From positions 1 through 64,000 of the forward strand of contig NZ_MSIE01000030.1 in the NCBI RefSeq assembly GCF_001921205.1: a stretch of 64,000 nt of DNA, in the 5' to 3' direction. Shown one piece after another: positions 9,695 to 53,098 of the stretch. Position numbers and translations under genes: made by a program. How positions within the stretch are numbered: position 1 is the first letter of the stretch; the number at the start of each line of letters is the position of its first letter. Under the pieces are notes generated by a model. The model saw nothing but the letters and a program-made list of their open reading frames with translations, was not told the DNA's origin and did not search any database. Source of the stretch: Actinophytocola xanthii (GTDB lineage Bacteria > Actinomycetota > Actinomycetes > Mycobacteriales > Pseudonocardiaceae).

Positions 9695-10769
9695 CTGGTG
9701 GCCACTCGTGTAGGCGGATCTCCGGAATGGTCCAGTCCGGAGTGATGACTTGGTGGTTCACGACGGGAACCCGGCAGAGCACGCTGAAGGTCCGCCGCTC
9801 GCCGAACCTGGTCCGCAGGTACTCGTCGTTGCGGTCGCGGAACTTCGCGTCGGTCAGCGCGCGGACGGCGCCGTAGGTGCCGCGCTGGTACATGCCGTTG
9901 CAGATGGTGACCGTGCGCTTGGCGTTGAACGGGTTGGGAGCACGGTAGAAATGTCCTACGTCCTCGTCGAGAACCTCACGACCCTCGACGGTGCTCAGGA
10001 CCGGTGCGAACCGGTGCGGTCCGTCTCCGTCGTCGACCTCGAAGCCCGCCGGCTCGGCGTCGGTCGGCCGCGGCTGCTGACGCACCGGCAGGTCCTCGCG
10101 GCGCAGCAGCTCGCCGGTGATGCGGTTCCAGTCCACCCCGCCGAGCAGGACGAGGTGGGTGGTGAGGTCGTCTGCCTTGATCTCGGCCGGGGTGCGGAAC
10201 CGGACCTCGTTGCGCGGGTTCGCCGCACGCACGTGGCCGAACAGCTCCAGCAGCGCGTCCAGGTCGGCGAGGCGGTAGAGGGCGACGTAGTCCGGCGCCT
10301 CGGGATCGGTGTAGGGCATCCGGTCCAGGTAGGCGCGTGGCAGCTCCGAGCAGACGATCGTGACGTCCTGCCCGGGCTGAAACCGCCAGATGCCGCCACC
10401 CAGCGGCGACTCGGCGGTTGTCGGCACGTCCTCGTCCGGCTTGTTCAGCGCGGCCGTGCTGAACTTCAGCAGCTCCTCCAGCAACTCCTCTGCGCGGGCA
10501 TGTTCCTGCTCGTCGAGCTCGTCGGGCACCCGGTACGGGGTGCTGGCGAGCGAGCGCTCGGTGGCGAAGAACCTGGCGTAGGCCGCGAGCCGCGCGCGGG
10601 GCGGGACGGTGGGCTTCTTCGTGTTCTCCCAGGACGAGATCAGCGGGACGCTCGCCCGGAGCGCCTCGGCGAGCTGGGCCTGGGTGATCCGGCGGTGGGG
10701 CCAGGTGTGTACCCGCAGCGAGCGGAGTCGCCGCGCGAGCTGGACGGCCGGGTCCTCAGCCGAGTTCAC
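9666..10769 (-). CDS. XRE HTH protein with large conserved C-terminal ligand-like domain
   Basis: 367 aa, GTG start. An XRE helix-turn-helix covers about residues 10-65 (T-Q-A-Q-L-A-E-A-L then I-S-S-W-E-N). The remaining ~250 residues form an alpha/beta domain of unknown function (V-T-I-V-C-S-E-L-P; H-L-V-L-L-G-G-V-D-W-N; I-C-N-G-M-Y-Q-R-G-T-Y-G-A-V-R) that I recall in many actinobacterial XRE-annotated proteins; the G-G/N-G-M loops suggest a Rossmann-like nucleotide or sugar pocket, which is inference. It heads an operon with a glycosyltransferase-like gene and is divergent from a class III cyclase-like gene; paired TTCAG-N9-CTGAA sites in between are its likely operators. Confidence 0.75.
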   Translation of the reverse strand: MNSAEDPAVQLARRLRSLRVHTWPHRRITQAQLAEALRASVPLISSWENTKKPTVPPRARLAAYARFFATERSLASTPYRVPDELDEQEHARAEELLEELLKFSTAALNKPDEDVPTTAESPLGGGIWRFQPGQDVTIVCSELPRAYLDRMPYTDPEAPDYVALYRLADLDALLELFGHVRAANPRNEVRFRTPAEIKADDLTTHLVLLGGVDWNRITGELLRREDLPVRQQPRPTDAEPAGFEVDDGDGPHRFAPVLSTVEGREVLDEDVGHFYRAPNPFNAKRTVTICNGMYQRGTYGAVRALTDAKFRDRNDEYLRTRFGERRTFSVLCRVPVVNHQVITPDWTIPEIRLHEWPPDDREHERGR

Positions 10770-35202: not shown

Positions 35203-35246
35203 GTCCACGCGCCGTCCGCAATTGTCCACGGATTCCTGCCTAACGT
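35203..35246 (+). promoter_or_regulatory. shared activator/promoter module, transporter copy
   Basis: GTCCAC at 35203-35208 and again at 35224-35229 (21 bp apart, two helical turns), then TAACGT at 35241-35246, 17 bp after the second repeat starts. The same arrangement, with GTCCAC, GTGCAC and TACCGT at identical spacing, precedes the intact pectate lyase (41912-41955). Tandem direct repeats abutting a promoter are typical of AraC-family activators, and such a regulator is encoded at 43151-46441. Confidence 0.65.
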
Positions 35247-35302
35247 GTCCCTCGGTGCGACAAGTGTCCCCAGGTCAGCGCCGACAGAAGGGGCGATGGG
35301 TC

Positions 35303-36220
35303 ATGGCGGTCGGCGAGGTGGGGACGCGACCCCGTGAGCGTGTTCGCGGCCGGGGGTCGCGGACGCCGTACCTGCTCATCGCACCCGCGGTGCTCGCGAT
35401 GCTGGCGTTCCTGGTCTACCCGATGGCCAGCGTCGTCTACTACAGCCTGCAGCACTACAACATCAGCAAGCCGTGGGAGAACGGGTTCGCCGGGCTGGAC
35501 AACTTCACCCGGATGCTCACGGCGGACCCGCTGTTCTGGCAGAGCCTCGGGTTCACCGCGCGGTGGGTCCTCGTCGAGGTCTCGCTGCAGCTGGTGCTCG
35601 GCCTCGCGCTGGCCCTGATCGTCAACGAGACCTTCGTCGGCCGCGCCGCCGCGCGGGCGATGGTGTTCTCCCCATGGGCGGTCTCCGGCGTGCTGACGAC
35701 CGGGATCTGGGTGCTGCTCTACAACCCGACCACCGGTCTGTCCCGCTACCTGGCCGACCTCGGGCTGATGGACTACGGCGCGGCGCCGCTGGCCAACCCG
35801 GACACCGTCTTCGCCGCGGCCGTGCTGGCCGAGCTGTGGCGCGGGGTGCCGTTCTTCGCGATCCTGCTGCTCGCCGACCTGCAGTCGATCCCCAGGGACC
35901 TCTACGAAGCGGCCTCGGTCGACGGTGCGAGCCGGGTCCGGCGCTTCTACCACGTGACGCTGCCGCACCTGAAGGACGCGATCATCCTGTCCACGCTGCT
36001 GCGCGCGGTCTGGGAGTTCAACAACGTCGACCTCCTCTACACCCTCACCGGCGGTGGGCCCGCCCACCAGACCACGACGTTGCCGCTCTACGTGGCCTCC
36101 ACCGCGGTGCAGTCCCAGGAGTTCGGCTACGGGTCCGCGCTCACCACCGCCGGCTTCCTGATCCTGACCTTCTTCTCCGTCGCCTACCTTCGGCTGAGCA
36201 AGTTCGGAGCCCGAACATGA
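35303..36220 (+). CDS. sugar ABC transporter permease (MalF-type)
   Basis: 305 aa, six hydrophobic helices. The EAA loop (Y-E-A-A-S-V-D-G-A-S then L-P-H-L-K-D-A-I) that contacts the ATPase is intact, and the sequence fits CUT1 oligosaccharide importers. ATG 35303 lies about 55 nt after the predicted -10 box. It overlaps the next permease by ATGA. The operon has no ATPase gene, so a shared MsiK-type ATPase encoded elsewhere is expected. Neighbouring pectate lyases suggest oligogalacturonides as cargo. Confidence 0.92.
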   Translation: MAVGEVGTRPRERVRGRGSRTPYLLIAPAVLAMLAFLVYPMASVVYYSLQHYNISKPWENGFAGLDNFTRMLTADPLFWQSLGFTARWVLVEVSLQLVLGLALALIVNETFVGRAAARAMVFSPWAVSGVLTTGIWVLLYNPTTGLSRYLADLGLMDYGAAPLANPDTVFAAAVLAELWRGVPFFAILLLADLQSIPRDLYEAASVDGASRVRRFYHVTLPHLKDAIILSTLLRAVWEFNNVDLLYTLTGGGPAHQTTTLPLYVASTAVQSQEFGYGSALTTAGFLILTFFSVAYLRLSKFGART

Positions 36221-37113
36221 GCACGGACCTGAGCACGCTGCCCCCGGCCGATCCGGCGGCGCGGCCGGCGCCCGACCAGCCGGCACCGGCCCGGCCCAAC
36301 CGGGCGTTACGGGTGGCCAGATGGCAGATCTACCTGCCGCTGGGGCTCTACCTGCTGTTCACGCTGGTCCCCTTCTACTGGATGCTGGTCTTCGCCGTCC
36401 GGCCGCGCGGCTCGACCTCGTTGCTGCCGTGGCCGGTCTCGCTGGAGAACTTCGAGACGGTGTGGAACGGCCTCGGGTTCGGAGTCTTCTTCGCCAACAG
36501 CCTCAAGGTCGGCGTCGCCGCGCTGGTGAGCACCACCATGATCGCGTTGGCCGGCGGCTACGCGCTCGCCCGCTACCGGTTCCGGGGGCGGACGGCGTTC
36601 ATGGTCGCGATGCTCTGCACGCAGTTCATCCCGGGCGCGATGATGCTGATCCCGCTGTTCGAGGTGTTCCGCAGCCTCGACCTGGTGAACAGCCTGTGGA
36701 GCCTGGTGATCGCGGAGACGGTGTTCCAGCTCCCGCTCTCGCTGATCCTGCTCTCCGGCTTCATCCGCAACGTTCCGGTGGAGCTGGAGGAGGCCGCCTG
36801 GGTGGACGGTTGCTCGCGGCTGCGGGGGTTCCTGGTCGTCGTCCTGCCGATGCTGCGCCCGGCGCTGGTGGCGGTCGGCTCGTTCGCGTTCATCCACAGC
36901 TGGAACAACTTCCTGTTCGCGCTGATGTTCGTGAGCGAGCAGGAGAAGTACACGATCCCCGTCGGCCTCGCCTTCACCCTCGGCGAGTTCAGCGTCGACT
37001 TCGGTGCGCTGGCGGCCGGAGGGGTGGTGGCCGCGGTGCCGGTCGTCCTGGTGTTCGCGATCGTCCAGCGCTACCTCGTCCAGGGCCTGTCAGCAGGGGC
37101 GGTGAAGGGATGA
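36217..37113 (+). CDS. sugar ABC transporter permease (MalG-type)
   Basis: 298 aa, six helices, with the EAA loop E-E-A-A-W-V-D-G-C-S followed by L-P-M-L-R-P-A-L. A Pro/Ala-rich cytosolic N-terminus of ~35 residues precedes helix 1. Coupled to both neighbours by ATGA overlaps (36217-36220 and 37110-37113), so stoichiometric translation with the MalF-type partner is expected. Confidence 0.92.
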   Translation: MSTDLSTLPPADPAARPAPDQPAPARPNRALRVARWQIYLPLGLYLLFTLVPFYWMLVFAVRPRGSTSLLPWPVSLENFETVWNGLGFGVFFANSLKVGVAALVSTTMIALAGGYALARYRFRGRTAFMVAMLCTQFIPGAMMLIPLFEVFRSLDLVNSLWSLVIAETVFQLPLSLILLSGFIRNVPVELEEAAWVDGCSRLRGFLVVVLPMLRPALVAVGSFAFIHSWNNFLFALMFVSEQEKYTIPVGLAFTLGEFSVDFGALAAGGVVAAVPVVLVFAIVQRYLVQGLSAGAVKG

Positions 37114-39092
37114 GCGGGGGCGCGGATCCTGTTCGGGTGGTGCTCGCGGGAGCCCGGGGCCACGGTCGGTGGCACCTGGACAACCTGCGCAGGCTCACCG
37201 TGGCGGGCCTGGTCGAGCTGGTCGGGGTGTGCGACGTGGCGCCGGTGGACGACGCCGAGCTCGTCGGGTTGGGCGAGCCCGACCAGTCCGCCGACCTTCC
37301 CCGGCTGATCGAGCGCACCGGTGCGGAGATCACCGTGCTCGTGACGCCCATCCACACCCACCGGGAGCTGGCGCTGGCCGCGTTGCACGCCGGCTCGCAC
37401 CTGCTGTTGGAGAAGCCGCCCGCAGCCACCCTGGCCGACTTCGAGCTGATCGCGACCGCCGTCCGGGACACCGGCCTGGCCTGCCAGGTCGGCTTCCAGA
37501 CCCTCGGCTCGGACGCGATCCCCTTCCTGCGCAAGCAGATCGCCGGCGGGCAGCTGGGCAGGGTGGCCGGGATCGGCGTGGCCGGCGCGTGGGAGCGGCC
37601 GGCCGCCTACTTCGAGCGGGCGCCCTGGGCCGGACGGCGGCGGCTGGACGGAGTCGCCGTCACCGACGGCGCCCTGACCAACCCGTTCGCGCACGCGGTC
37701 GCCACCGCGCTCGCGGTGGCCGAGGCGGAGCAGCTCGGCGCAGTGGCCGAGGTTGACGTGGAGCTCTACCGGGCCAACGCGATCGAGTCCGACGACACCT
37801 CCTGCCTGCGGCTGCGCCTGGCCAACGGGCTCGTCGTCACGGTCGCCGTCACGCTCTGCGCGCCCAGGCGCACCGAGCCCTACCTGGTGGTGCACGGCGA
37901 GGCGGGTCGGGCCGAGCTGGTGTACACGCGGGACGAGGTGACGGTCACGCCGAACGGCGCGAGCGCCTCGGTCAGCTCGCACGGCCGGACCGACCTGCTG
38001 GAGAACCTCGTCGACCACGTCCGCGCCGACGCCCAGCTGCTGGCGCCGCTGGCGCGTACCGGCGCCTTCATGCAGGTCCTCGAAGCGGTGCGGCTGGCGC
38101 CGGACCCGCGGCCGATCCCGGTGGGGCACCAGGAGCTGCGCCGCGACGCGCGGCGCCGGGTGGTGGGTCGGGTGCTCCCCGGGATCGAGGAGCTGACCGC
38201 GCGCAGCGCCCGGGCGCTCGCGCTCTACTCCGAGCTCGACGTCCCGTGGGCGCCGGCCGAGCAGGTCCTGCGGGCCGGCGACCGGGACGTGGCCAGCTAC
38301 CGCTGGCGGGTGGACCTCCCCGAGACCGTCTCGCCCCGGCCCTACCTGCACCCGGTGCGGACGCTGGCCGGGGCGCAGGTGAGCGAGCTGGCACCGCCCG
38401 ACCACGTGCACCATCTCGGGGTCGGCGTCGCGATAGCCGACGTGTGCGGCAACAACTTCTGGGGCGGCCGGACCTACGTCGCCGGGCAGGGCCCCACCTG
38501 GCGCCGCGACCACGGCACCCAACGCCACCTGCGGTTCGCCCGACGGGAGGCCGACGGCCTGGTCGAGCACCTGGAGTGGCTCGACCCCGACGGGCTCCCG
38601 GTCCTGGCCGAGGAGCGCTCGATCAGGTCCTGCGTCCTGGACGGCACCGGGTGGGTCCTGGACGTGGCCTTCACCCTCACCCACCTCGGCGAGGGCCCAC
38701 TCGCCATCCGCAGCTCGGCGACGAAGGGGCGGCCAGGCGCGGGGTACGGCGGGTTCTTCTGGCGCGCTCCCGGTTCGGCGACCCGTCGAACCGTGTTCAC
38801 CCAGCACGGAGAGGGCGAGGAGCAGGTCAACGAGCGCCGTGCGCCCTGGGTGGCGATGTGCGGCACGAACCCGGACGGGCAGGACTGGACCCTGGTACTC
38901 GCCCAGCACGGCTCCGCCGACCCCTGGTTCGTCCGGGTGCGCGAGTACCCCGGGATCGGCCCGGCTCTCGCCTGGGAGCAGCCCCTCGTCGTCACCGGTG
39001 CCCTGACCAGGCGCGTGATAACGGTCATCGTCGACGGTCGGCTCGACCGTGCGGCGTCGGCGGCCCTGATCGACAGAACGACAGAAAGGTAG
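37110..39092 (+). CDS. Gfo/Idh/MocA oxidoreductase-DUF6807 (PmoA-like) fusion
   Basis: 660 aa two-domain enzyme. Residues ~8-330 form a Gfo/Idh/MocA dehydrogenase: N-terminal Rossmann V-V-L-A-G-A-R-G-H-G and the conserved E-K-P-P (usual E-K-P) with the catalytic Lys. Residues ~385-655 match the DUF6807/PmoA domain (D-H-V-H-H-L-G-V, W-G-G-R-T-Y, G-Y-G-G-F-F-W), a beta-sandwich found beside sugar catabolic genes. The fusion lies inside the transporter operon, so it probably oxidises or processes the imported sugar acid. It overlaps the permease by 4 bp; the binding protein follows 6 bp later. Confidence 0.85.
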   Translation: MSGGADPVRVVLAGARGHGRWHLDNLRRLTVAGLVELVGVCDVAPVDDAELVGLGEPDQSADLPRLIERTGAEITVLVTPIHTHRELALAALHAGSHLLLEKPPAATLADFELIATAVRDTGLACQVGFQTLGSDAIPFLRKQIAGGQLGRVAGIGVAGAWERPAAYFERAPWAGRRRLDGVAVTDGALTNPFAHAVATALAVAEAEQLGAVAEVDVELYRANAIESDDTSCLRLRLANGLVVTVAVTLCAPRRTEPYLVVHGEAGRAELVYTRDEVTVTPNGASASVSSHGRTDLLENLVDHVRADAQLLAPLARTGAFMQVLEAVRLAPDPRPIPVGHQELRRDARRRVVGRVLPGIEELTARSARALALYSELDVPWAPAEQVLRAGDRDVASYRWRVDLPETVSPRPYLHPVRTLAGAQVSELAPPDHVHHLGVGVAIADVCGNNFWGGRTYVAGQGPTWRRDHGTQRHLRFARREADGLVEHLEWLDPDGLPVLAEERSIRSCVLDGTGWVLDVAFTLTHLGEGPLAIRSSATKGRPGAGYGGFFWRAPGSATRRTVFTQHGEGEEQVNERRAPWVAMCGTNPDGQDWTLVLAQHGSADPWFVRVREYPGIGPALAWEQPLVVTGALTRRVITVIVDGRLDRAASAALIDRTTER

Positions 39093-39098
39093 ACGGCC

Positions 39099-40397
39099 AT
39101 GGCCTCACGACGATGGTTGACGGCCGGTGCGCTCGTGGTGACATCGTGCCTGGCGCTGGCCGGGTGCGGAGGTGACTCGGGCTCCGACGGCACCACGACG
39201 ATCACGTTCTGGGACGACAACGGCGGCCCCGCCCGCACCCCGGTGTGGGAGCACATCATCGACGAGTTCGAGCGGGACAACCCCGACATCAAGGTGAAGT
39301 ACGTCGGCATCCCCATCGCCCAGGCCCAGCAGAAGTACGACACCGCCATCGCCGGGGACGGGTTGCCGGACGTGGGCGGGGTCAGCACCGCCATGCTCGC
39401 GAACCTGGTCGCCCGGCAGGCCCTGGAGCCGATGGACGAGCGCATCGCGAACAGCTCCCTGGACGGGAAGCTCAGCGAGCAGGTCGTCGAGTCGGTGCGG
39501 GCGACGGTGCCCGACGAGAAGCTCTACTTCGTCCCGATGTCGACGAACATGGGCGTGTTCTGGTACCGCGCCGACTGGTTCGCCGAGGCGGACATCTCCC
39601 CGCCGGCCAGCTGGGACGAGTTCTACGCCGCCGTCGAGAAGCTGACCGACACCGGGAACAACCGCTACGGCTACACGATCCGCGGCGGCGCCGGCTCGAT
39701 CTCGCAGCTGCTCGAGGTGCTCTACGGCCAGTCCGGCATCGACGAGATGTTCGACTCCTCCGGCCGGTCGACGGTCAACGACCCCCGCAACGTCGCGGCG
39801 CTGGAGAAGATCGCCGGCCTGTACCGGAAGTACACGCCCGAGGCCGACGTCACCAACGACTACGTGAAGATGGTCGCCCAGTTCGACGGCGGCAACATCG
39901 GCATCATGCAGCACAACCTGGGCTCCTACACCGACCACGTGAAGACGCTCGGGGAGGACAAGGTCGGTGCGATGTTCGTGCCGCCGGCCGAGAACGGCTC
40001 CCGCACGGTCACCTCCCACCCGGTCTCCGGGCTCGGCGTGTTCGCCTCCGGCGAGCAGAAGGACGCGGCGTTCAGGTTCGCCGAGTTCGCCGCCGGCAAG
40101 GAGATGAACGGCCACTGGGCGGCGGAGACCGGCGTCCTGCCGGCCAACACCGAGGCAGCCGACCTGGAGGGCCTCGCGCACATCACCGAGGCGACGAGCG
40201 TGCTCAACGACCCCGAGACCAGGCTGGTCCAGCTGCCGTACTACCTGCCCGAGTTCAACGCGATCACCAAGACCGACGCCGAGCCGCTGTTCCAGAAGGT
40301 CCTGCTCGGCGAGATGTCCGCGAAGGAGTTCCTGGACCAGATGGCCGACAAGCTCACCGACGCGCAGGCGGGCTACGAGCAGCGCAACGGCGGCTGA
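39099..40397 (+). CDS. sugar ABC transporter substrate-binding lipoprotein
   Basis: 432 aa. Lipobox L-A-L-A-G-C with lipidated Cys23. The mature part is a bacterial cluster-D binding protein: I-T-F-W-D-D-N-G-G near the start, W-Y-R-A-D-W-F, W-D-E-F-Y-A-A and the later G-G-N-I-G-I-M. It delivers ligand to the two upstream permeases. Being last in the operon, after the enzyme gene, is unusual, since binding proteins normally come first. Confidence 0.93.
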   Translation: MASRRWLTAGALVVTSCLALAGCGGDSGSDGTTTITFWDDNGGPARTPVWEHIIDEFERDNPDIKVKYVGIPIAQAQQKYDTAIAGDGLPDVGGVSTAMLANLVARQALEPMDERIANSSLDGKLSEQVVESVRATVPDEKLYFVPMSTNMGVFWYRADWFAEADISPPASWDEFYAAVEKLTDTGNNRYGYTIRGGAGSISQLLEVLYGQSGIDEMFDSSGRSTVNDPRNVAALEKIAGLYRKYTPEADVTNDYVKMVAQFDGGNIGIMQHNLGSYTDHVKTLGEDKVGAMFVPPAENGSRTVTSHPVSGLGVFASGEQKDAAFRFAEFAAGKEMNGHWAAETGVLPANTEAADLEGLAHITEATSVLNDPETRLVQLPYYLPEFNAITKTDAEPLFQKVLLGEMSAKEFLDQMADKLTDAQAGYEQRNGG

Positions 40398-40562
40398 CCC
40401 CCTGACCGAGCACCAGGAGGTCACGCGATGAGACACCTTCTGTCAACCTACGCAACCGTCACCTCAGGGGAACGTGACGCAATCCAGCCACAGGTACGTG
40501 CCGGAACCGCACCGTCCCAGCCCAAGGTGACCAACAGGGAGAAAGTCCGGGGACGCGGACCA

Positions 40563-41878
40563 GTGAGACGACTGTTAGGCGTGGCGGCGCTGGCCGCTGT
40601 CGCCGCGGTGACCGCCACACTGCCGGCCGCGGCGCTGCCGGTGGCGAGCGCCGCCGCTGGACACGGAGCTCCGCTCGGGCGCCAGGTGCTCGGACCGGAC
40701 GACGGGTGGGCGGCCGAGGGCGCCGGCACCACCGGGGGGTCGGCGGCACCGCCGGGCAACGTGCACGTGGTCGACACCCGCGCGGAGTTGGTGGCCGCCC
40801 TGGCGGCGCCGGCGCCCCGGATCGTCCACGTCCGCGGGCTGGTCGACGGGAACACCGACGACGCGGGCCGACGGCTCGACTGCGCGGACTACGCCGCCGA
40901 CGGGTACAGCCTGCCGGCCTACCTTGCCGCCTACGACCCCGCCGTGTGGGGCCGGGACACCGAGCCGGCCGGTCCGCTCGAGGACGCGAGGGCGGCCTCC
41001 GCGGCGAACCAGGCCGCCCGGATCACCGTCCGGGTCGGATCGGACACCACGATCGTCGGCCTCGGCCGCCGACCGTCCTCAAAGGACTTAACCTGCGGGT
41101 GTCGAACGCTGACAACGTCATCATCCGCAACCTCACCTTCGTCGACGCGGCGGACTGCTTCCCGGCCTGGGACCCGACCGACGGGACCAACGGCGAGTGG
41201 AACTCGGCCTACGACAACCTGTCGGTGACCGGGTCGACCCACGTCTGGGTCGACCACAACACGTTCACCGACGGCGACAACCCGGACTCCGGGCAGCCGG
41301 CCTACTTCGGCCGGCCGTACCAGGTGCACGACGGCGAGCTCGACATCACCGCCGGCTCCAGCCTGCTGACCGTCTCATGGAACCGGTTCACCGACCACGA
41401 CAAGACGATGCTCATCGGGTCGACCAACAACCCGGCGACCGACCGCGGCCGGCTCGACGTGACCGTGCACCACAACCTGTACGAGGGCACCCAGCAGCGG
41501 CTGCCGCGGGTCCGGTTCGGACGTGTCCACGTCTACAACAACCACTACCGGCTTCCCGCCGGGCTCAGCTACGCGCTCGGCGTCGGTGTGGAGTCCCGGA
41601 TCGTGGCCGACCGCAACGTGTTCGAGGCCGAGCCGGGTGTGGAGCCGGGGGAGCTGCTCTACGACTGGGGCGGGACCGCGGTCACCGCGCGGGGCAACCT
41701 GTGGCGGGAGGGACGCCGGCTGGTGCCGGTCGACCTCGTCGCCGCCTACAACGCCACCCACGACCCCGACCTGGGCACGGACGTGGGCTGGGAGCCCAGC
41801 CTGCACGGTCGTATCGACCCGGCGCACCGGGTGCCCTGGGTGGTGGACCGGCACGCGGGAGCGGGCCGTGTGGGCTGA
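40563..41878 (+). pseudogene. secreted pectate lyase family 1, disrupted by a frameshift
   Basis: The 5' part (GTG 40563, signal peptide R-R-L-L-G-V-A-A-L) reads in one frame to T-T-I-V-G-L-G-R near 41070; the rest (V-L-K-G-L-N-L-R-V-S, W-V-D-H-N-T-F, R-L-P-R-V-R-F-G, H-V-Y-N-N-H-Y) continues in another. One base appears to be missing around 41078-41088. All catalytic and calcium-site motifs of polysaccharide lyase family 1 are preserved downstream, so the break is recent or a sequencing error. An ATG at 40428 opens a longer first frame, but its N-terminus does not look like a signal peptide. Follows the transporter operon by 165 bp. Confidence 0.8.
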
Positions 41879-41880
41879 GG

Positions 41881-41891
41881 TGAACCGTTCA
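41881..41891. promoter_or_regulatory. TGAACCGTTCA palindrome
   Basis: Perfect odd palindrome just after the disrupted lyase and 21 bp before the AraC-type repeat module; same motif as 15364-15374 upstream of the alpha-galactosidase. Confidence 0.4.
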
Positions 41892-41911
41892 GTCGTCGCG
41901 TAGGCGGAAGA

Positions 41912-41955
41912 GTCCACGCGGTGTTCGCGATTGTGCACACACGACTACCTACCGT
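41912..41955 (+). promoter_or_regulatory. shared activator/promoter module, pectate lyase copy
   Basis: GTCCAC (41912-41917), GTGCAC (41933-41938) and TACCGT (41950-41955), with 21-bp and 17-bp spacings identical to 35203-35246. The flanking AGTCCACGCG and ATTGT blocks are also shared. Predicted start of transcription near 41962. Confidence 0.65.
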
Positions 41956-42061
41956 GAAACGTGGGTGATGGCGGCAGGCCGGCCAATGTGAACTCCTGTC
42001 AGGACTCGGGTCGACCGTCGCTCGCCGGATCAACGAGGATCCCACGAATTGGAGGCGCATC

Positions 42062-43006
42062 ATGCGTAGCTCGATCGCGAAACGAGGACTGGCCGGGGCC
42101 ATGGCGGTCGCCGCCGCGGCCGCGCTGACCGTCTGGTCGGCGCCGCAGGCGGCGGCCGTCGGCACACCGACCGGCTTCGGCGCCGGCACGACCGGTGGCG
42201 GCAACGCCTCACCGGTGACCGTGTCGTCGTCCTCGGCGCTGATCAGCGCGATGCAGGCGAGCGGCGCCGCGGTCATCCGGGTCAACGGCATGATCTCGAT
42301 CAGCGGCATGCAGGACATCGCGTCCAACAAGACGCTGATCGGCGTGGGCTCCGGCTCCGGCATCACCGGCGGCGGCGTGGACGTCGACGGCGTCAGCAAC
42401 GTCATCATCCAGAACCTGAACTTCCGCGACTGGGCCGACGACGCCGTCAACGTCCAGGACGGCTCAACCAGGATCTGGATCGACCACAACAACTTCTCCA
42501 ACGGCTACGACGGCGCCGTCGACATCAAGCGCGGGTCGGACTACATCACCGTGTCGTGGAACAGGTTCTTCAACCACGACAAGGCGATGCTGCTCGGCCA
42601 CAGCGACGGCAACGCGAGCCAGGACCGCGGGCACCTGCGGGTCAGCTACCACCACAACTGGTTCGACGGCACCAACCAGCGCCATCCCCGGGTGCGCTTC
42701 GGCAATCCGGTACACGTGTACAACAACTACTACGACGCCGTCGGCGACTACGGTGTGGCGTCCACTGTAGAGGCTGGTGTCCTGGTGGAGGGCAACTACT
42801 TCGAGAACACCGACTCTCCCTGTGAGCTCGGTCAGGGCAGCTCGCCCGCCGGGTCGCTGGTTGCCCGCAACAACCACTTCGTCAACTCGGGCACCTGCGC
42901 CACGGGCGGCAGCGTGAACGGCATCCCGTACTCCTACTCGCTCGACGCGGCCAGCAGCGTCAAGTCGATCGTCGAAGGTGGCGCGGGCGTGGGCAAGGTC
43001 GCCTGA
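42062..43006 (+). CDS. secreted pectate lyase, PL1 family
   Basis: 314 aa exoenzyme cleaving polygalacturonate by beta-elimination. GGAGG 7 nt before ATG; signal peptide to about A-Q/A-A-A-V-G. The right-handed beta-helix shows I-W-I-D-H-N-N-F and the Asp-rich calcium site (D-G-A-V-D-I, N-H-D-K), then the catalytic Arg cluster R207-H-P-R210-V-R212 and V-Y-N-N-Y-Y. Complete and of normal size. Preceded by the module shared with the transporter operon and followed by a clear terminator, so it is a monocistronic member of the pectin regulon. Confidence 0.95.
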   Translation: MRSSIAKRGLAGAMAVAAAAALTVWSAPQAAAVGTPTGFGAGTTGGGNASPVTVSSSSALISAMQASGAAVIRVNGMISISGMQDIASNKTLIGVGSGSGITGGGVDVDGVSNVIIQNLNFRDWADDAVNVQDGSTRIWIDHNNFSNGYDGAVDIKRGSDYITVSWNRFFNHDKAMLLGHSDGNASQDRGHLRVSYHHNWFDGTNQRHPRVRFGNPVHVYNNYYDAVGDYGVASTVEAGVLVEGNYFENTDSPCELGQGSSPAGSLVARNNHFVNSGTCATGGSVNGIPYSYSLDAASSVKSIVEGGAGVGKVA

Positions 43007-43025
43007 CCTGCCCACACTCGACCGG

Positions 43026-43052
43026 CTCCCGCCACACCCGCCGTGGCGGGAG
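43026..43052 (+). terminator. hairpin terminator after pectate lyase
   Basis: CTCCCGCCA (43026-43034) and TGGCGGGAG (43044-43052) pair perfectly (9 bp) around a 9-nt loop, 20 bp after the stop codon. Confidence 0.65.
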
Positions 43053-43063
43053 TCGCTCCACTC

Positions 43064-43092
43064 TTGCCTTGCGCGGCGGGTAAAGGTTATGT
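43064..43092 (+). promoter_or_regulatory. promoter of the hybrid regulator
   Basis: TTGCCT (43064-43069) and TTATGT (43087-43092) with a 17-bp spacer, an unusually good housekeeping-type match, placing the start about 50 nt before the ATG. A single GGTCCAC occurs in the leader. Confidence 0.5.
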
Positions 43093-43150
43093 TGCAGAGA
43101 GTGTCGCCGGTCCACTGCGCGGTTCATCACTGTCGATGAGCGAGGCGATA

Positions 43151-46100
43151 ATGACGGCATCCCGGCTGACGATCGGTCTGGTCACGGCCAACATCCACCT
43201 CGGTGTGGGGGCGACCCTCTGGTCCGGCGCGCTCGACGCGGCACGGCGCCACGACGTCAACCTGATCTGCTTTCCCGGCGGCGAGGTCGGGGCGACCGAC
43301 CGGCCGCGCAACCGCGTGTACGACCTGGCCGGCCCGGACCTGCTGGACGGGTTGATCTGCTGGGCGTCCACGCTCGGGCTCCCGGTCGCACACGCCCGGG
43401 CCGAACGGCTCGGCCGGCAGTTCGGCCGGCTCCCGATGGTCAGCCTGAACGGGGCGATGGGCGAGGACCGCCCGCTCACCCTGGACAGCTACCGCGGGAT
43501 GTGCACGGCGATCAGCCACCTCATCGAGGTGCACGGCCGTCGCAGGCTCGCCTTCATCCGCGGCACGGTCGCCAACCCGGTCATCGTCGAGCGCTACCGG
43601 GCCTACACCGACACCCTGGCCCGCAACCGCATCCCGCTGGACCGCACGCTGGTGTCCGCACCGGTCGACTTCCACCTGGAGGCCGGCGCCTCGGCGATGC
43701 GGGTGCTGCTGGACACCCGGGCGCTGCGCCCCGGACGCGACTTCGACGCCGTGGTGGCCTGTAGCGACTTCCTCGCCGCGGACGCGTTACGCCTGCTCTC
43801 CGAGCGCGGTGTGCGCGTCCCGGAGGACGTCGCGGTCGTCGGGGTCAACGACTCGCCCGAGGCGACGCTGGTCGACCCACCGCTGACCTCGGTGTCCATG
43901 CCGTTCGCCGAGCTCGGTGAGCGGGCGGTGGAGACGCTGGTCGCCCGCCTGCGGGGCTCGGCGGCGGCCCGGGTTCCCTCGCCCGCCTCGACGCTGGTCG
44001 TCCGGCGGTCCTGTGGCTGTCCGGGCACGCTGACGACCGACCTCGAGGAGGACGTGCCCGACCCGGGGGCCGACCACCCCGCGGAGCTCCGTGCGGAGGT
44101 GGAGCGGCTCATCGAGGGCGACGGCCAGGTGCCCGCGGCCGGGCGCCGCGCCCTGGCGGCGGGGTTCCTCGCCTCGCTCCGTGCCGAGCGAGGGCCGGCA
44201 CAAGCGTTCCTGGCCGAGGTCGAGCGGCTGCTCGGCGCGTCGGCGGCGAGCAGCCGCGAGGCGGAGGCGTGGGACGGGGTGCTGACCGCCCTGCACCTGT
44301 CCGCCATGCGCCATCTCACCGGGCAGTCGCGGGTGCGGGCCGAGCGCCTGCTCGCGCGGGCCAGGCTGGTCGTTGCGGACGTGGGCCGCCGGCTGTTGGA
44401 GTACGAGCGCTGGCAGGCCGAGCAGACCTCGAGACGGCTGCGTGAGCTCGGGAACACGCTGTCCGCGGCGGTGGACCTCTCGGCCCTGACCGAGGTGCTG
44501 GACCGGCAGCTGCCGGCATTGGGTGTCCCGCGCTGCCAGCTGTTCCTCGACCCGGCCCGACCGCTGGGAGCCTCGAGCGTGCTGCCGACCGACCGCCGGT
44601 ACAGCATGGTCGCCGAGCCGCTCTACGTCCGCGCCGAGCTGCTCGGCTTCGGCCTGTTCGAGGTGGGGCCGCGGTCCGGTGCTCTCTACCGCGCGCTGGC
44701 CGACCAGATCGGGGCCAGCATCAAGGAGATCCGGCTGTTCGACGACGTGCGCGCCACCCGCGACCTCGCCGAGCAGGCGGACCGGGTGAAGTCGACGCTG
44801 CTCAGCAGCGTCAACGACGAGCTGCGGGCGCCCGTACAGGACATCCGGCGGCGCGTGGACGACGCGTTGCGGCTGGTCGAGCACCTCACCGGGGCACCGC
44901 CGCGGCTGGTCGAGGAGCTCAAGGAGATCCAGGTGAGCGTCGAGCAGCAGCTGGGCGTGCTCAGCGACCTGCTCGACCTGTCCAAGGCCGAGATCGACAC
45001 GCTCGACCTCGCTCCCGAGCTGGTGGACCCCGCGGCGTTGCTGGAGGAGGTGGCCCGCCAGCCGCTGCCGGGGCGGCTGCCGCTGATCCTGGCCGACCGC
45101 CGCCGGCTGCGGCAGGCCCTGGTGAGCCTCTACGGGTGCGCCGAGCGGCTGGCCGGAGGCGCCGGGGCGGTGGCCGTGGAGGCGGACGTGCTGGCCCCGA
45201 ACCTGCGGATCCGCTTCTGCCGGCGCGGTACCGGTCCCGGCCGGGCCGGGGGTGGCGACGCGCCGGACTCCGCGCTCGCCCTGCCGATCACCAGACGGCT
45301 GATCACCCTGCACAACGGCTCCTTGCGGTTCGACTCCGCACCGGACGGGGTCACCGTCGACGTGACGCTCCCGCTGCCCTGCCCCCAGGGGCGGCCGGTG
45401 GTCCCCGACTCGGCGGACTGCGTGCTCCTCGTCGGGGGGGACGGTCCCCCCGCCGGCCTCGGCGCGCTGGGCGAGCGTCCGGTGCGGCAGCTGCACGTGG
45501 GGGACGACCTGTCGGCCGTGCTCGCCGACACCCGGCCGGCGGCCGTGGTCTGGGACGTCCCGGGCGCCGCACCGGAGGACTGGCCGGTCGTGCGGTACCT
45601 GCACGACCACCCGCTGCTGCGCCGGGTGCCGTTCGTGGTCTTCGGCGCGCCGGCCGGCCGGGACCTCGACGAGCTGGTCACCGCGCGGCGACCGGCCGAG
45701 CTGACCGGCCCGGTCGTGATCGCCGACGTCGACCCGGACACCCAGGCCACCTACCACCGCCTCGTCGCGCAGGTCCGCCCCGGTCACCACGTCGTGGTGG
45801 CCTCGGACGGGGCGACGGCGCTCGCCGCGCTCGACGAGGACGTCCCGAGCCTGGTCATCGTGTCCCAGACGCTGCCGGACATGGACGGGTTCGACGTGCT
45901 CGACCGGCTGCACGGCGACGCGCGGCTGCCCAACGTGCCCGTTCTGATCCTCAGTGGACGGACGATCACGGTCGAGGACATCCAGCGTGCCGAGCCCTAC
46001 GGCCGCTCGGTGCTGCTCGGCAAGGGAATCCTGAGCGAGGGGGAGACGGCCGCGCTGCTCGCCCGGCTCTCCCGGTCGCGCAACCCGGGGCCGCAGCGGA

Positions 46101-46441
46101 GCAGCGTGCTGGTCAAGCACGCGGTGGCGTTCCTGCACCAGCACTACCACCACCAGATCACCCGCAGGCAGGTCGCGCAGGCGGCCGGGATGAGCGAGGA
46201 CTATCTGAGCCGGACCTTCCACCGGGAGCTGTGCATCTCGCCCTGGGAGTACCTCAACCGGCTGCGCATCCAGCGGGCCAAGGAACGCCTGCGGGAGAGC
46301 GACGACAGCATCCAGGTCGTGGCGCGGCGGGTGGGCTTCCACGACCGGGCCTACTTCAGCCGGATGTTCCGCAAGCTCACCGGGATGCCCCCGCAGTCCT
46401 ACCGCGAGTCCTGGGCGCCCAACCACCGGCCCGGGGGGTGA
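43151..46441 (+). CDS. hybrid LacI-like sensor/kinase-like/receiver/AraC transcriptional regulator
   Basis: 1096 aa. ATG 43151 follows GAGG at 5 nt. Residues ~1-290 are a LacI-type periplasmic-binding fold without a LacI HTH, ending in the S-C-G-C motif seen in this family. A helical and GAF-like region (~400-540) leads to a kinase-like dimerisation helix, where the phospho-His is Asp556 (N-D-E-L-R instead of S-H-E-L-R). An ATPase-like domain follows, then a receiver (~850-965) with Ser905 in place of the phospho-Asp. The C-terminal ~110 residues are an AraC HTH pair (V-A-R-R-V-G-F-H-D-R-A-Y-F-S-R-M-F). It likely acts allosterically on sugar binding to activate the pectin operons. Confidence 0.87.
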   Translation: MTASRLTIGLVTANIHLGVGATLWSGALDAARRHDVNLICFPGGEVGATDRPRNRVYDLAGPDLLDGLICWASTLGLPVAHARAERLGRQFGRLPMVSLNGAMGEDRPLTLDSYRGMCTAISHLIEVHGRRRLAFIRGTVANPVIVERYRAYTDTLARNRIPLDRTLVSAPVDFHLEAGASAMRVLLDTRALRPGRDFDAVVACSDFLAADALRLLSERGVRVPEDVAVVGVNDSPEATLVDPPLTSVSMPFAELGERAVETLVARLRGSAAARVPSPASTLVVRRSCGCPGTLTTDLEEDVPDPGADHPAELRAEVERLIEGDGQVPAAGRRALAAGFLASLRAERGPAQAFLAEVERLLGASAASSREAEAWDGVLTALHLSAMRHLTGQSRVRAERLLARARLVVADVGRRLLEYERWQAEQTSRRLRELGNTLSAAVDLSALTEVLDRQLPALGVPRCQLFLDPARPLGASSVLPTDRRYSMVAEPLYVRAELLGFGLFEVGPRSGALYRALADQIGASIKEIRLFDDVRATRDLAEQADRVKSTLLSSVNDELRAPVQDIRRRVDDALRLVEHLTGAPPRLVEELKEIQVSVEQQLGVLSDLLDLSKAEIDTLDLAPELVDPAALLEEVARQPLPGRLPLILADRRRLRQALVSLYGCAERLAGGAGAVAVEADVLAPNLRIRFCRRGTGPGRAGGGDAPDSALALPITRRLITLHNGSLRFDSAPDGVTVDVTLPLPCPQGRPVVPDSADCVLLVGGDGPPAGLGALGERPVRQLHVGDDLSAVLADTRPAAVVWDVPGAAPEDWPVVRYLHDHPLLRRVPFVVFGAPAGRDLDELVTARRPAELTGPVVIADVDPDTQATYHRLVAQVRPGHHVVVASDGATALAALDEDVPSLVIVSQTLPDMDGFDVLDRLHGDARLPNVPVLILSGRTITVEDIQRAEPYGRSVLLGKGILSEGETAALLARLSRSRNPGPQRSSVLVKHAVAFLHQHYHHQITRRQVAQAAGMSEDYLSRTFHRELCISPWEYLNRLRIQRAKERLRESDDSIQVVARRVGFHDRAYFSRMFRKLTGMPPQSYRESWAPNHRPGG

Positions 46442-50566: not shown

Positions 50567-52954
50567 CTAACACTTCCGCCATACCGTGACGTCGGCGTCG
50601 AAGAACTCGTAGTGGCGGCGGTGGTCGCGCATGACGCCGGCCTCGTTCGACTCGGCTACCAGGTCGAAGGACTCGGTGAGCAGTCGGCGCAGTGCCTGCT
50701 CGCTGCTCTGGTCGGCGCCGCCGATCCACCGTTGCCGGTCGGTGAAGGCCGGCTGCCAGCTCCACGGGCTGCCGACGACCAGCAGGCCGCCCGGTCGCAA
50801 CAACGCCGTCGAGTCGATGAACTGGCGCAGGCACCCGAGCGGGTCGTCGAGCCGGTCGAGCAGGTTGGCGAGCACGACCGCGGTGAACGAGCCGAGTTCG
50901 GGGGACAGCGCGGCGGCGTCCCCGGTGCGGAACTCGACACCGCCGCCGGCGACCGGGCGCGGGGCCCTGGCGAACAGCAGGGTGCTGCGCTCCGCCTGCT
51001 CCGGCCGCTCGTAGGGCACGGTCTTCCCGGCGGCGAGCGCGTTGGCCGTGTCGACGAACTGGGTGCTCCGGTCGATCCCGACGACCTCGGCGGGTACCCG
51101 GGAGGCGATCTCGAACGCCACCCCGCCGACCGAGCTGCCGACGTCCAGCACCCGGTGCAGCGGCGTACCGGCCCGTGCGGCGGCCCGCACCAGGAGCTCG
51201 GCCACCCGGGCTGGGTAGCCGTGCGCGGCGGCAAGCGGGTGGTCGGGCCGGCCGAACGTGTCCTGCTCGTCGCCGAAGTGCATCAGCAGGTACCGGTCGA
51301 GCACCTCGTGCCGTTCGTACCGGTCCTCCTCCCGGTCCGGCGCCGCGGCCTGCGCCGGCGGTGCCGCACTCGCCGCCGGTTCGGCGGCGCTGACCAGCCG
51401 AATGCCGGCCTGCTGCAGGAAGTGCGGGCGGAAGTGGTAGCGGGCCCAGATGCTGGCCTGGTCGCCGGTGCTCACGAAGCAGCCGCCGAGGATCATCTGG
51501 TGCTGGCCGTCGAAGCACGGCACCGAGAAGTCCTCGTAGTAGGGGTGGACGGTGAACCCCTCCAGCGGGTTGGCCACGTCCTCCGACCACGTCCAGAGAT
51601 TGCCCCCGACGTCGTGCACGCCGTGGCCGGTGGCGGGGGAGTGGTCGACCGGGCTCTCCGAACCCCACGCGAGGTTCAGGTTGACCCCCCGTGCGCGCAG
51701 GTCGTCGCCGGCCGCCCGCAGCACGCGGTCGTCGTCGGCGGTCGGCTTCGCCGGCAGGTCACGCAGCCGGTTGAACTCGAACTCGGTGGGCAGCCGGTAG
51801 GTCCGATCGTCCTTCTGGGACCGCCAGGCGCAGAACGCCTTCGCCTCGTGGTAGTTCACGCAGACCGGCCAGTCCCACGGCATGTCGATCTCGTCGAAGG
51901 TGGTGCGCAGTCGAAAGGTGTGCAGCCCGGTCGGACCGGCCTGCACCCACCAGCGCGGCCACTTCGCGTTGCGGAACCGGCGCCAGCGCTCGCCCTCCTC
52001 CGACCACAGCTCAGGTCGGCGGTAGCCGCCGTCCACGACGAACTCGTGGAACTCCCCGTTGCTGACCAGGAAGCGAGCTGTGTCGAACTCGGACACCTCC
52101 TGCTCTCGGGTGCCGTACTCGTTGTCCCAACCGAACGACGGGAAGTCCCACGGCTTTCCCAGCCGGGCGGTGCCGGCGGGGATGGTGACCAGGTCGTTGT
52201 CCGGATAGGACTCGGTGGACGGCCGTCCGCTCTCGGTGACCCGGCCGATCGGCGTCGGCAGCGGCCATTCCTCGGGCTGGCGCACCAACCGCCGCGGCAG
52301 CTCCCGGATCAGGACCGAGCTGGTCTCGAGGTGGACGCGGTCGTGCTCGAACGCGAGGAACAGCGCCCAGGCCTGGTCGTCCATGGTCACCGGGCGACCG
52401 AGGTCCGGGGCGAACGGCGTCGACTCGATCACCTGGAGCATGGTCCGGTAGACCGTCGCCCGGTACTCCCGCACGGCGGCGACGGAGGGCCAGCGCATCT
52501 CGTTCTTGGACATGTCGTCCCAGGACATCTCGTCGACGCCGGTCTCCAGGACGTCCTCGAGATAGGCGTCGACCGGCGCTTCGAGCAGGCCGCTGACCCG
52601 GAGCTTGTTGACGTAGAGCGCCGCCGGGTGGCCGTAGTAGAAGATCATCGGGTGGCGCAGCCCGTGGTCCGGTGGCCGGTAGAACGCCTCGGACGTCTGC
52701 AGGCCCGCGAACAGGGTCTCCTGCAGCGTCCAGGAGTTGTTGAAGTAGTCGACGACCTCGTCGCGACCGCACACCGACAGGTCCGGCATGGGCAGCGAGG
52801 TCAGCCGCCCGTCCGGACCGACACCCGGGCACGTTCCGCGGTCGGGTCGTTGGCCGGTGAACCACCAGCCCGGGTCGCGCCTGCCGGTCAGCCGTTCGTC
52901 GGCGTGCTCGGTGGCGTTCGTTTCCCACATTGCCGGTTCTGCCGTAGCCGTCAT
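50567..52954 (-). CDS. ovoA: 5-histidylcysteine sulfoxide synthase with methyltransferase domain (ovothiol biosynthesis, OvoA)
   Basis: 795 aa iron enzyme that joins histidine and cysteine with O2 in ovothiol synthesis. The N-terminal DinB-type domain has the iron site H204-x3-H208-x-E210 (E-H-D-R-V-H-L-E). The middle FGE-sulfatase-type domain shows G-G-N-L-W-T-W-S-E-D-V and G-G-C-F-V-S. The C-terminal domain is a SAM methyltransferase (V-L-D-V-G-S-S-V-G-G), the fusion typical of OvoA rather than ergothioneine EgtB. ATG 52954 follows GAGGGCCAGG. No recognisable OvoB sulfoxide lyase is adjacent. A PLP-decarboxylase/FAD pair lies just beyond a DUF402 gene. Confidence 0.9.
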   Translation of the reverse strand: MTATAEPAMWETNATEHADERLTGRRDPGWWFTGQRPDRGTCPGVGPDGRLTSLPMPDLSVCGRDEVVDYFNNSWTLQETLFAGLQTSEAFYRPPDHGLRHPMIFYYGHPAALYVNKLRVSGLLEAPVDAYLEDVLETGVDEMSWDDMSKNEMRWPSVAAVREYRATVYRTMLQVIESTPFAPDLGRPVTMDDQAWALFLAFEHDRVHLETSSVLIRELPRRLVRQPEEWPLPTPIGRVTESGRPSTESYPDNDLVTIPAGTARLGKPWDFPSFGWDNEYGTREQEVSEFDTARFLVSNGEFHEFVVDGGYRRPELWSEEGERWRRFRNAKWPRWWVQAGPTGLHTFRLRTTFDEIDMPWDWPVCVNYHEAKAFCAWRSQKDDRTYRLPTEFEFNRLRDLPAKPTADDDRVLRAAGDDLRARGVNLNLAWGSESPVDHSPATGHGVHDVGGNLWTWSEDVANPLEGFTVHPYYEDFSVPCFDGQHQMILGGCFVSTGDQASIWARYHFRPHFLQQAGIRLVSAAEPAASAAPPAQAAAPDREEDRYERHEVLDRYLLMHFGDEQDTFGRPDHPLAAAHGYPARVAELLVRAAARAGTPLHRVLDVGSSVGGVAFEIASRVPAEVVGIDRSTQFVDTANALAAGKTVPYERPEQAERSTLLFARAPRPVAGGGVEFRTGDAAALSPELGSFTAVVLANLLDRLDDPLGCLRQFIDSTALLRPGGLLVVGSPWSWQPAFTDRQRWIGGADQSSEQALRRLLTESFDLVAESNEAGVMRDHRRHYEFFDADVTVWRKC

Positions 52955-53098
52955 GTCCTGGCCCTCGTGTCTCTCGCCGGAGTGCCCGCGGGCTCCCGGC
53001 GTCGGAATCTCTGGCGTCGGAATCTGTCGACAGCGTGACATCCGGTCTGAAACTCGTTCATCTCCCGCGTTGCGGTCGACGGGCTCCGCACAACGAGA

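Follow-up and report, generated by a model that had tools for sequence, protein, structure and literature searches.

A candidate pectin regulon of Actinophytocola xanthii with a shared direct-repeat operator and a putative sugar-sensing regulator lacking phosphorelay residues

We analyzed a 64,000-nucleotide (nt) stretch of the Actinophytocola xanthii genome (contig NZ_MSIE01000030.1, positions 1 to 64,000; hereafter the window), in which two modules of shared pattern, a sugar transporter operon, pectate lyase genes and the gene of a 1096-amino-acid (aa) regulator lie together on the forward strand. Module A (35203-35246), an operator/promoter candidate, is followed by a first ATP-binding cassette (ABC) sugar permease, beginning MAVGEVG (35303-36220; Pfam BPD_transp_1, 1.1e-12; an alternative in-frame GTG lies upstream at 35255), a second permease (36217-37113, ATG at 36217; BPD_transp_1, 5e-17 on 36223-37110), a fusion of a Gfo/Idh/MocA oxidoreductase with DUF6807 (37110-39092; DUF6807, 5.3e-67; GFO_IDH_MocA, 7.4e-11), an ABC solute-binding protein (39099-40397; SBP_bac_1, 1.6e-34) and, after 30 base pairs (bp), a frameshifted gene for a pectate lyase of polysaccharide lyase family 1 (PL1; 40428-41878). 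This lyase is divided between two frames, that of 40428 for the N-terminal part and that of 40706-41878 for the catalytic part (Pectate_lyase_4, 1e-40 on 40706-41875); the split could be a true pseudogene or an error of the draft assembly. Module B (41912-41955), a candidate of the same kind, precedes an intact PL1 pectate lyase of 314 aa (42062-43006; Pectate_lyase_4, 7e-39), behind which, after 144 bp, stands the regulator gene (43151-46441, ATG at 43151; the frame is open from a GTG at 43043 as well). The N-terminus of the intact lyase resembles a signal peptide by eye, and the lyases of the window are probably secreted, as judged in the same way. Homologues of the oxidoreductase-DUF6807 fusion adjoin the same permeases in three other genomes (G004, G213 and G259).

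The first-pass annotation had described the pattern GTCCAC-N15-GTSCAC-N11-TAMCGT upstream of the transporter operon and of the intact lyase, and both 44-bp matches were recovered at the positions and on the strand it gave. The spacing it reported was also borne out at both modules, with repeat starts 21 bp apart and 17 bp from the start of the second repeat to TAMCGT. In module A, the boxes are GTCCAC (35203-35208), GTCCGC (35214-35219), GTCCAC (35224-35229) and the −10-like TAACGT (35241-35246); in module B, they are GTCCAC (41912-41917), GTTCGC (41923-41928), GTGCAC (41933-41938) and the −10-like TACCGT (41950-41955). The two modules thus share a longer sequence than had been noted, GTCCAC-N5-GTYCGC-RATT-GTSCAC-N7-TRCC-TAMCGT. 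The original pattern had two exact matches in the window, as compared with 0.00 expected from 100 dinucleotide shuffles, and allowing three mismatches added a single match with two mismatches, on the opposite strand inside a lyase reading frame (41805-41848).

Across the 204 contigs of the genome (8.34 Mb), the original pattern had two exact matches, none with one mismatch and ten with two. At up to three mismatches, 87 matches were found versus 27 for the reversed pattern, a threefold excess, and these loose matches were regarded as mostly noise; therefore, matches with two or three mismatches were accepted as sites only if the inner core matched. This 16-bp core, GTYCGCRATWGTSCAC, in which W was admitted only after a third candidate site had been noticed, had three exact matches and 43 with two mismatches, with nothing at one mismatch, and the control had 17 matches. 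The third exact core lies within positions 45470-45513 of another contig (C133), ahead of a PL1 pectate lyase (Pectate_lyase_4, 2e-34), with GGAGG and then an in-frame GTG about 40 bp downstream. In the genome scan that had been proposed for the motif, exact cores therefore did not fall at random sites, the third one preceding a pectate lyase.

We scanned 297 genomes of the family with GTCCACN8CGCRATWGTSCACN9CCTA, allowing up to two mismatches, and obtained 11 sites in six genomes, as compared with none for the reversed pattern. Six of these sites had not been seen before; the pattern had been composed with the other five already in view, namely three sites in G000 and those before the permease in A. 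xinjiangensis and A. gossypii. Each of the 11 is followed at a distance of 7-106 nt by a pectin-related gene, identified by Pfam (five) or tblastn (six): ABC permease 1 in five cases, a PL1 lyase in four and a PF03211 lyase in two, one of which (L075, 9054-10286, in G005) is fused to a ricin-type lectin domain. Permease sites corresponding to module A occur in G002, G004, G005 and G213, and sites before the same lyase as that of module B occur in G002 and G005. The full-length regulator is present in five of the six site-bearing genomes (G000, G002, G005, G213 and G259); in the same-genus genomes G001 and G003, neither a site (by the family pattern) nor a full-length regulator was found. A regulator search in 200 family genomes, considering the best three candidates per genome, found it in at least three, all of them site-bearing. 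With a matrix built from the 11 sites, three further, weaker sites were detected, before the PL1 lyase in both G213 and G259 and before permease 1 in G259. Among the eight sites outside the matrix set, seven scored 34-47 and the eighth, which has an extra base, scored 12; the maximum in one simulated 8.34-Mb sequence, generated from the trinucleotide statistics of the window, was 16.4.

The arrangement extends to other actinobacteria. A search of 394 genomes, limited to the best two candidates per genome, revealed a PL1 lyase with the regulator gene immediately after it in at least four genomes of one other genus of the class (G369, G419, G530 and G572), and the same order was found in Streptomyces ficellus (L045). 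Each of these five lyases is preceded by a site; four of the sites scored 34-41, and that of L099, with the extra base before its −10, scored 12. A pattern derived from the five sites, with up to three mismatches, was then run on 392 genomes of the genus of G530 and gave 26 sites in 23 genomes. Twenty-two of the sites precede a PL1 orthologue, and in 21 of these the regulator stands behind the lyase in the examined locus. Three genomes, G369, G419 and G530, had contributed to the pattern, leaving 20 of the 23 as independent, and 18 of these 20 carry the regulator behind the lyase. The remaining four sites comprise two before beta-helix-type proteins, one cut by a contig end and one without a pectin gene. 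The two beta-helix-type targets (L127 and L128) are 76% identical over 243 aa and are possibly PL9-like, a weak label: L128 matched PF22842 at 1.4e-5 with 24.7 bits against a cut-off of 25.2, and L127 had no Pfam match even at an E-value of 10.

A counterpart was found in Chloroflexota. Six regulator orthologues with 35-39% identity, all from metagenome assemblies, lie in loci that adjoin genes for two permeases, a solute-binding protein, members of glycoside hydrolase families 88 and 28 (GH88 and GH28) and PfkB, with GH4 in four loci. Between regulator and permease, five of the six loci carry [GA]TCCAA-type repeats at N15, followed by TANNNT at N11. The strict form of this pattern matched in four loci, with no other matches across the whole loci, and L042 required a looser first repeat. 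When 612 geometries (34 x 18) were compared in the five intergenic stretches, only the (15,11) spacing recurred, in four of them, and one other appeared once. The 17 sites from both phyla align without gaps and have 11 invariant columns, in TCC, CG, A, CA, TA and T. The link between the module, the pectin genes and the regulator at 43151, as first proposed for the window, thus holds in these comparisons across many genomes and two phyla. In one locus (L044), the start of the Aquidulcis regulator (10001-10225) lies in a different frame from the rest, probably through a frameshift in the metagenome assembly, and this regulator was used without its frameshifted start.

The window regulator consists, in order, of a LacI-type sugar-binding domain, a helical/GAF-like region, a degenerate HisKA-HATPase core, a receiver and an AraC-type double helix-turn-helix (HTH; AraC domain at residues ~980-1096). 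The sugar-binding and DNA-binding domains were readily recognized by Pfam (Peripla_BP_3, 3.5e-31; HTH_18, 6.8e-25; HTH_AraC, 3.5e-13 in two stretches); HisKA and HATPase_c were weak and below the cut-off. A structure model retained the order of folds (mean predicted local distance difference test score, pLDDT, 75.8; predicted template modeling score, pTM, 0.48), and the top Foldseek match of the sensor domain by E-value was CelR with cellobiose (5ysz). The model also contains an extra alpha/beta segment before the receiver (residues ~745-850), possibly a second degenerate receiver. An N-terminal LacI HTH was not among the ten families listed at E-values up to 10, where the HMMER filters drop most weak matches. 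A simple hydropathy scan found no transmembrane segment (maximum Kyte-Doolittle score over 19 residues, 1.33 for the window protein and at most 1.77 across 16 proteins), and the LacI-type sensor is predicted to be cytoplasmic.

The name given in the first-pass annotation, an AraC-type hybrid regulator, fits the AraC domain and the hybrid-kinase architecture, but the phosphoacceptors have been lost: the histidine is replaced by Asp and the receiver aspartate by Ser. Among ten actinobacterial proteins, the histidine position is occupied by Asp (seven), Glu (two) or Ala (one), whereas His is found in all six chloroflexotal proteins. The N-box Asn and the G1 Asp are likewise present in none of the ten and in six of six. 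Nine of the ten actinobacterial proteins lack the receiver Asp, which every one of the six chloroflexotal proteins keeps. The second acidic residue of the receiver is missing from all ten actinobacterial proteins, of which five keep the receiver Lys and six the Ser. Two further candidates were rejected. Autoregulation was considered, and a GTCCAC at 43110 before the regulator gene has no partner repeat at 21 bp, with no matrix match above 9. As for a full-length relative on plasmids, none of 3192 matching records covers 80% of the query in one place, and the Hymenobacter match consists of separate genes.

The geometry of the sites bears on how the promoter may be organized. The start codon lies exactly 7 nt after TANNNT in three of the 11 family sites (the G002 permease, the G004 permease and the G259 lyase), and a 7-nt gap from −10 to start codon is that expected for a leaderless transcript. 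Among the 17 sites, no hexamer at spacers of 15-19 matches TTGACA in more than four of six positions, and the promoters seem to lack a −35 box. If TANNNT is the −10, the distal repeat would lie at about −50 to −45, GTYCGC at −39 to −34 and the proximal repeat at about −29 to −24, so that the latter seems to fall inside the −35/−10 spacer. The earlier expectation of tandem repeats next to promoters would then need refining for the proximal repeat, which would lie within the spacer and not beside the promoter. Of the whole arrangement, this repeat in the spacer would be the most unusual element, and it is compatible with either activation or repression.

We consider it quite likely, on the strength of these sequence comparisons, that each module is an operator containing its own promoter, and that both belong to a pectin regulon governed by the neighboring, phosphorelay-dead, sugar-sensing regulator. 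In the mechanism that we propose, the LacI-like domain would bind a pectin-derived sugar in the cytoplasm, probably one imported by the ABC transporter, and the signal would pass mechanically through the dead histidine-kinase core and the phosphoacceptor-less receiver to the AraC-type domain. Two protomers would occupy the GTCCAC repeats spaced by 21 bp, between which the CG of the GTYCGC box would be contacted as well, and would recruit RNA polymerase to a promoter with a −10 (TANNNT, 11 bp past the second repeat) and no −35. Uptake and the lyases would be coupled in this regulon, which would also reach a distant lyase by way of the third site on C133. Binding of the repeats by the regulator, an oligogalacturonide as the transported ligand and positive control are our inferences; the sites, their downstream genes, the synteny, the conservation across phyla and the residue differences were computed.

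Several observations weigh against this reading. Before the regulator gene itself, no convincing site was found in the window by pattern or matrix. G004 has a site before its transporter, and a full-length regulator was not found in this 280-contig draft, in which the contig ends just after the solute-binding protein gene. The L099 score of 12 is below the simulated maximum of 16.4, and this site therefore stands on its position, not on its score; L099 is also the actinobacterial orthologue that keeps the receiver Asp. Against the 26 real matches in the genus of G530 stand 15 for the reversed pattern, and counts at three mismatches are weak; therefore, gene context and not raw counts carries the weight there. 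The family pattern missed the three matrix-found sites in G213 and G259, and its zeros in other genomes therefore do not prove absence. In Chloroflexota, no site was found in L041 with the strict or the loose pattern, although regulator and pectin genes are both there; the pattern was written after the intergenic sequences had been inspected, L040 and L047 are near-duplicates, and the loci were retrieved through the regulator, so that its presence there is no independent evidence. Finally, −29 to −24 is an unusual placement for a repeat bound by an AraC-type activator, and repression is therefore possible.

Repression is the most viable alternative, although we regard it as unlikely: the regulator would bind the module mainly as a repressor, with the protomer on the spacer repeat blocking RNA polymerase until the pectin sugar binds. 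The position of the proximal repeat, supported by the 7-nt start codons and the missing −35 match, fits such a block, as does a sensor fold resembling LacI-family regulators, many of which are repressors. By contrast, a promoter without a −35 box is predicted to need help, and the available part of PMC10766802 presents AraC-type hybrid regulators as activators of xylanase and arabinanase genes.

It is quite improbable that the module serves another, unlinked regulator or an alternative sigma factor, with the linked AraC-type gene a mere neighbor. The G004 site with no detected regulator would be explained in this way, but searches starting from the site reach the regulator in five of six family genomes and, in the genus of G530, in 18 of the 20 genomes outside the pattern set, and the same-genus genomes G001 and G003, which lack the regulator, also lack the site. 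A direct repeat of 21 bp also suits a DNA-binding protein with two protomers better than a sigma factor. That the phosphorelay is still alive through non-canonical residues or a separate partner kinase, with control still by phosphorylation, is hardly credible: the receiver Asp of L099 and the partly kept Lys and Ser would favor it, but none of the ten actinobacterial proteins has the His, the N-box Asn, the G1 Asp or the second acidic residue of the receiver, and nine of them lack the receiver Asp.

Returning to the phosphorelay-dead regulator as the driver of the pectin regulon, the chloroflexotal orthologues combine the same operator geometry with intact phosphorelay residues, and therefore the actinobacterial line appears to have kept the operator and the pathway and dropped the phosphorelay chemistry. 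We infer this loss, and the direction of the change, from an unrooted comparison of the sequences. A wider, tentative interpretation, to which we give somewhat less than even odds, is a pectin switch common to Chloroflexota and Actinomycetota, in which operator geometry and pathway were preserved and the regulator, once a phosphorelay hybrid kinase, may have become a ligand-driven scaffold that works independently of phosphorylation and replaces the −35 contact by binding inside the spacer.

Two other genes of this contig may be mentioned. About 9 kb past the end of the window lies a GH28-like gene (L049, 9069-10184), 33% identical to a chloroflexotal GH28, and the matrix built on the 11 family sites gave no operator above 9 in L049. 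In the window, positions 50570-53041 encode a single protein that combines FGE-sulfatase, DinB and methyltransferase domains and that we take to resemble ergothioneine biosynthesis enzymes.

The proposed regulator shares features with several known systems. AraC, XylS and RhaS are AraC/XylS-family activators that act at tandem direct repeats adjoining the promoter. The window regulator resembles them in its double HTH and in direct repeats about two helical turns apart, but its proximal repeat seems to be placed inside the spacer of the promoter instead of overlapping the −35, and its DNA-binding domain sits on a kinase-derived scaffold. With the LacI/GalR family it shares the sugar-binding core (Peripla_BP_3, with CelR as the top structural match), but it has no detected LacI HTH and its output is an AraC-type HTH. 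Pseudokinases, of which ChrS is reportedly an example, offer another parallel. As in the pseudo-receivers and pseudokinases covered by the accessible part of a review (PMC12632262), the window regulator appears to have lost its phosphotransfer residues with the domain folds retained; unlike those described there, kinase and receiver are both lost in one polypeptide, and intact orthologues accompany this operator geometry in a second phylum. The same part of that review calls pseudo-receiver activation a mystery, yet gives examples with known ligands (ShkA and CikA). In the Bacteroides hybrid two-component systems (HTCS), such as that for arabinoxylan, a sensor, a histidine kinase core, a receiver and an AraC-type HTH are likewise joined in one polypeptide acting on polysaccharide-degradation genes, according to the available part of PMC10766802. 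The window regulator has the same order of parts (sensor, HisKA/HATPase, receiver, AraC HTH) and probable targets in polysaccharide degradation. An HTCS spans the membrane with an extracytoplasmic sensor and carries phosphoacceptor His and Asp; the window regulator lacks both of these residues, and its LacI-like sensor is predicted to be cytoplasmic, in a protein without a predicted transmembrane segment. Among titles and abstract openings outside subscription journals, we found no published description of this operator or regulator.

Taken together, the comparison puts forward a candidate regulator, with its operator code and a list of targets, for pectin degradation in a group of soil actinobacteria and for the pectin operons of uncultured Chloroflexota. 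Intact and dead orthologues, seemingly on the same operator, would make it testable how a receiver and a kinase core can relay a signal without phosphate.

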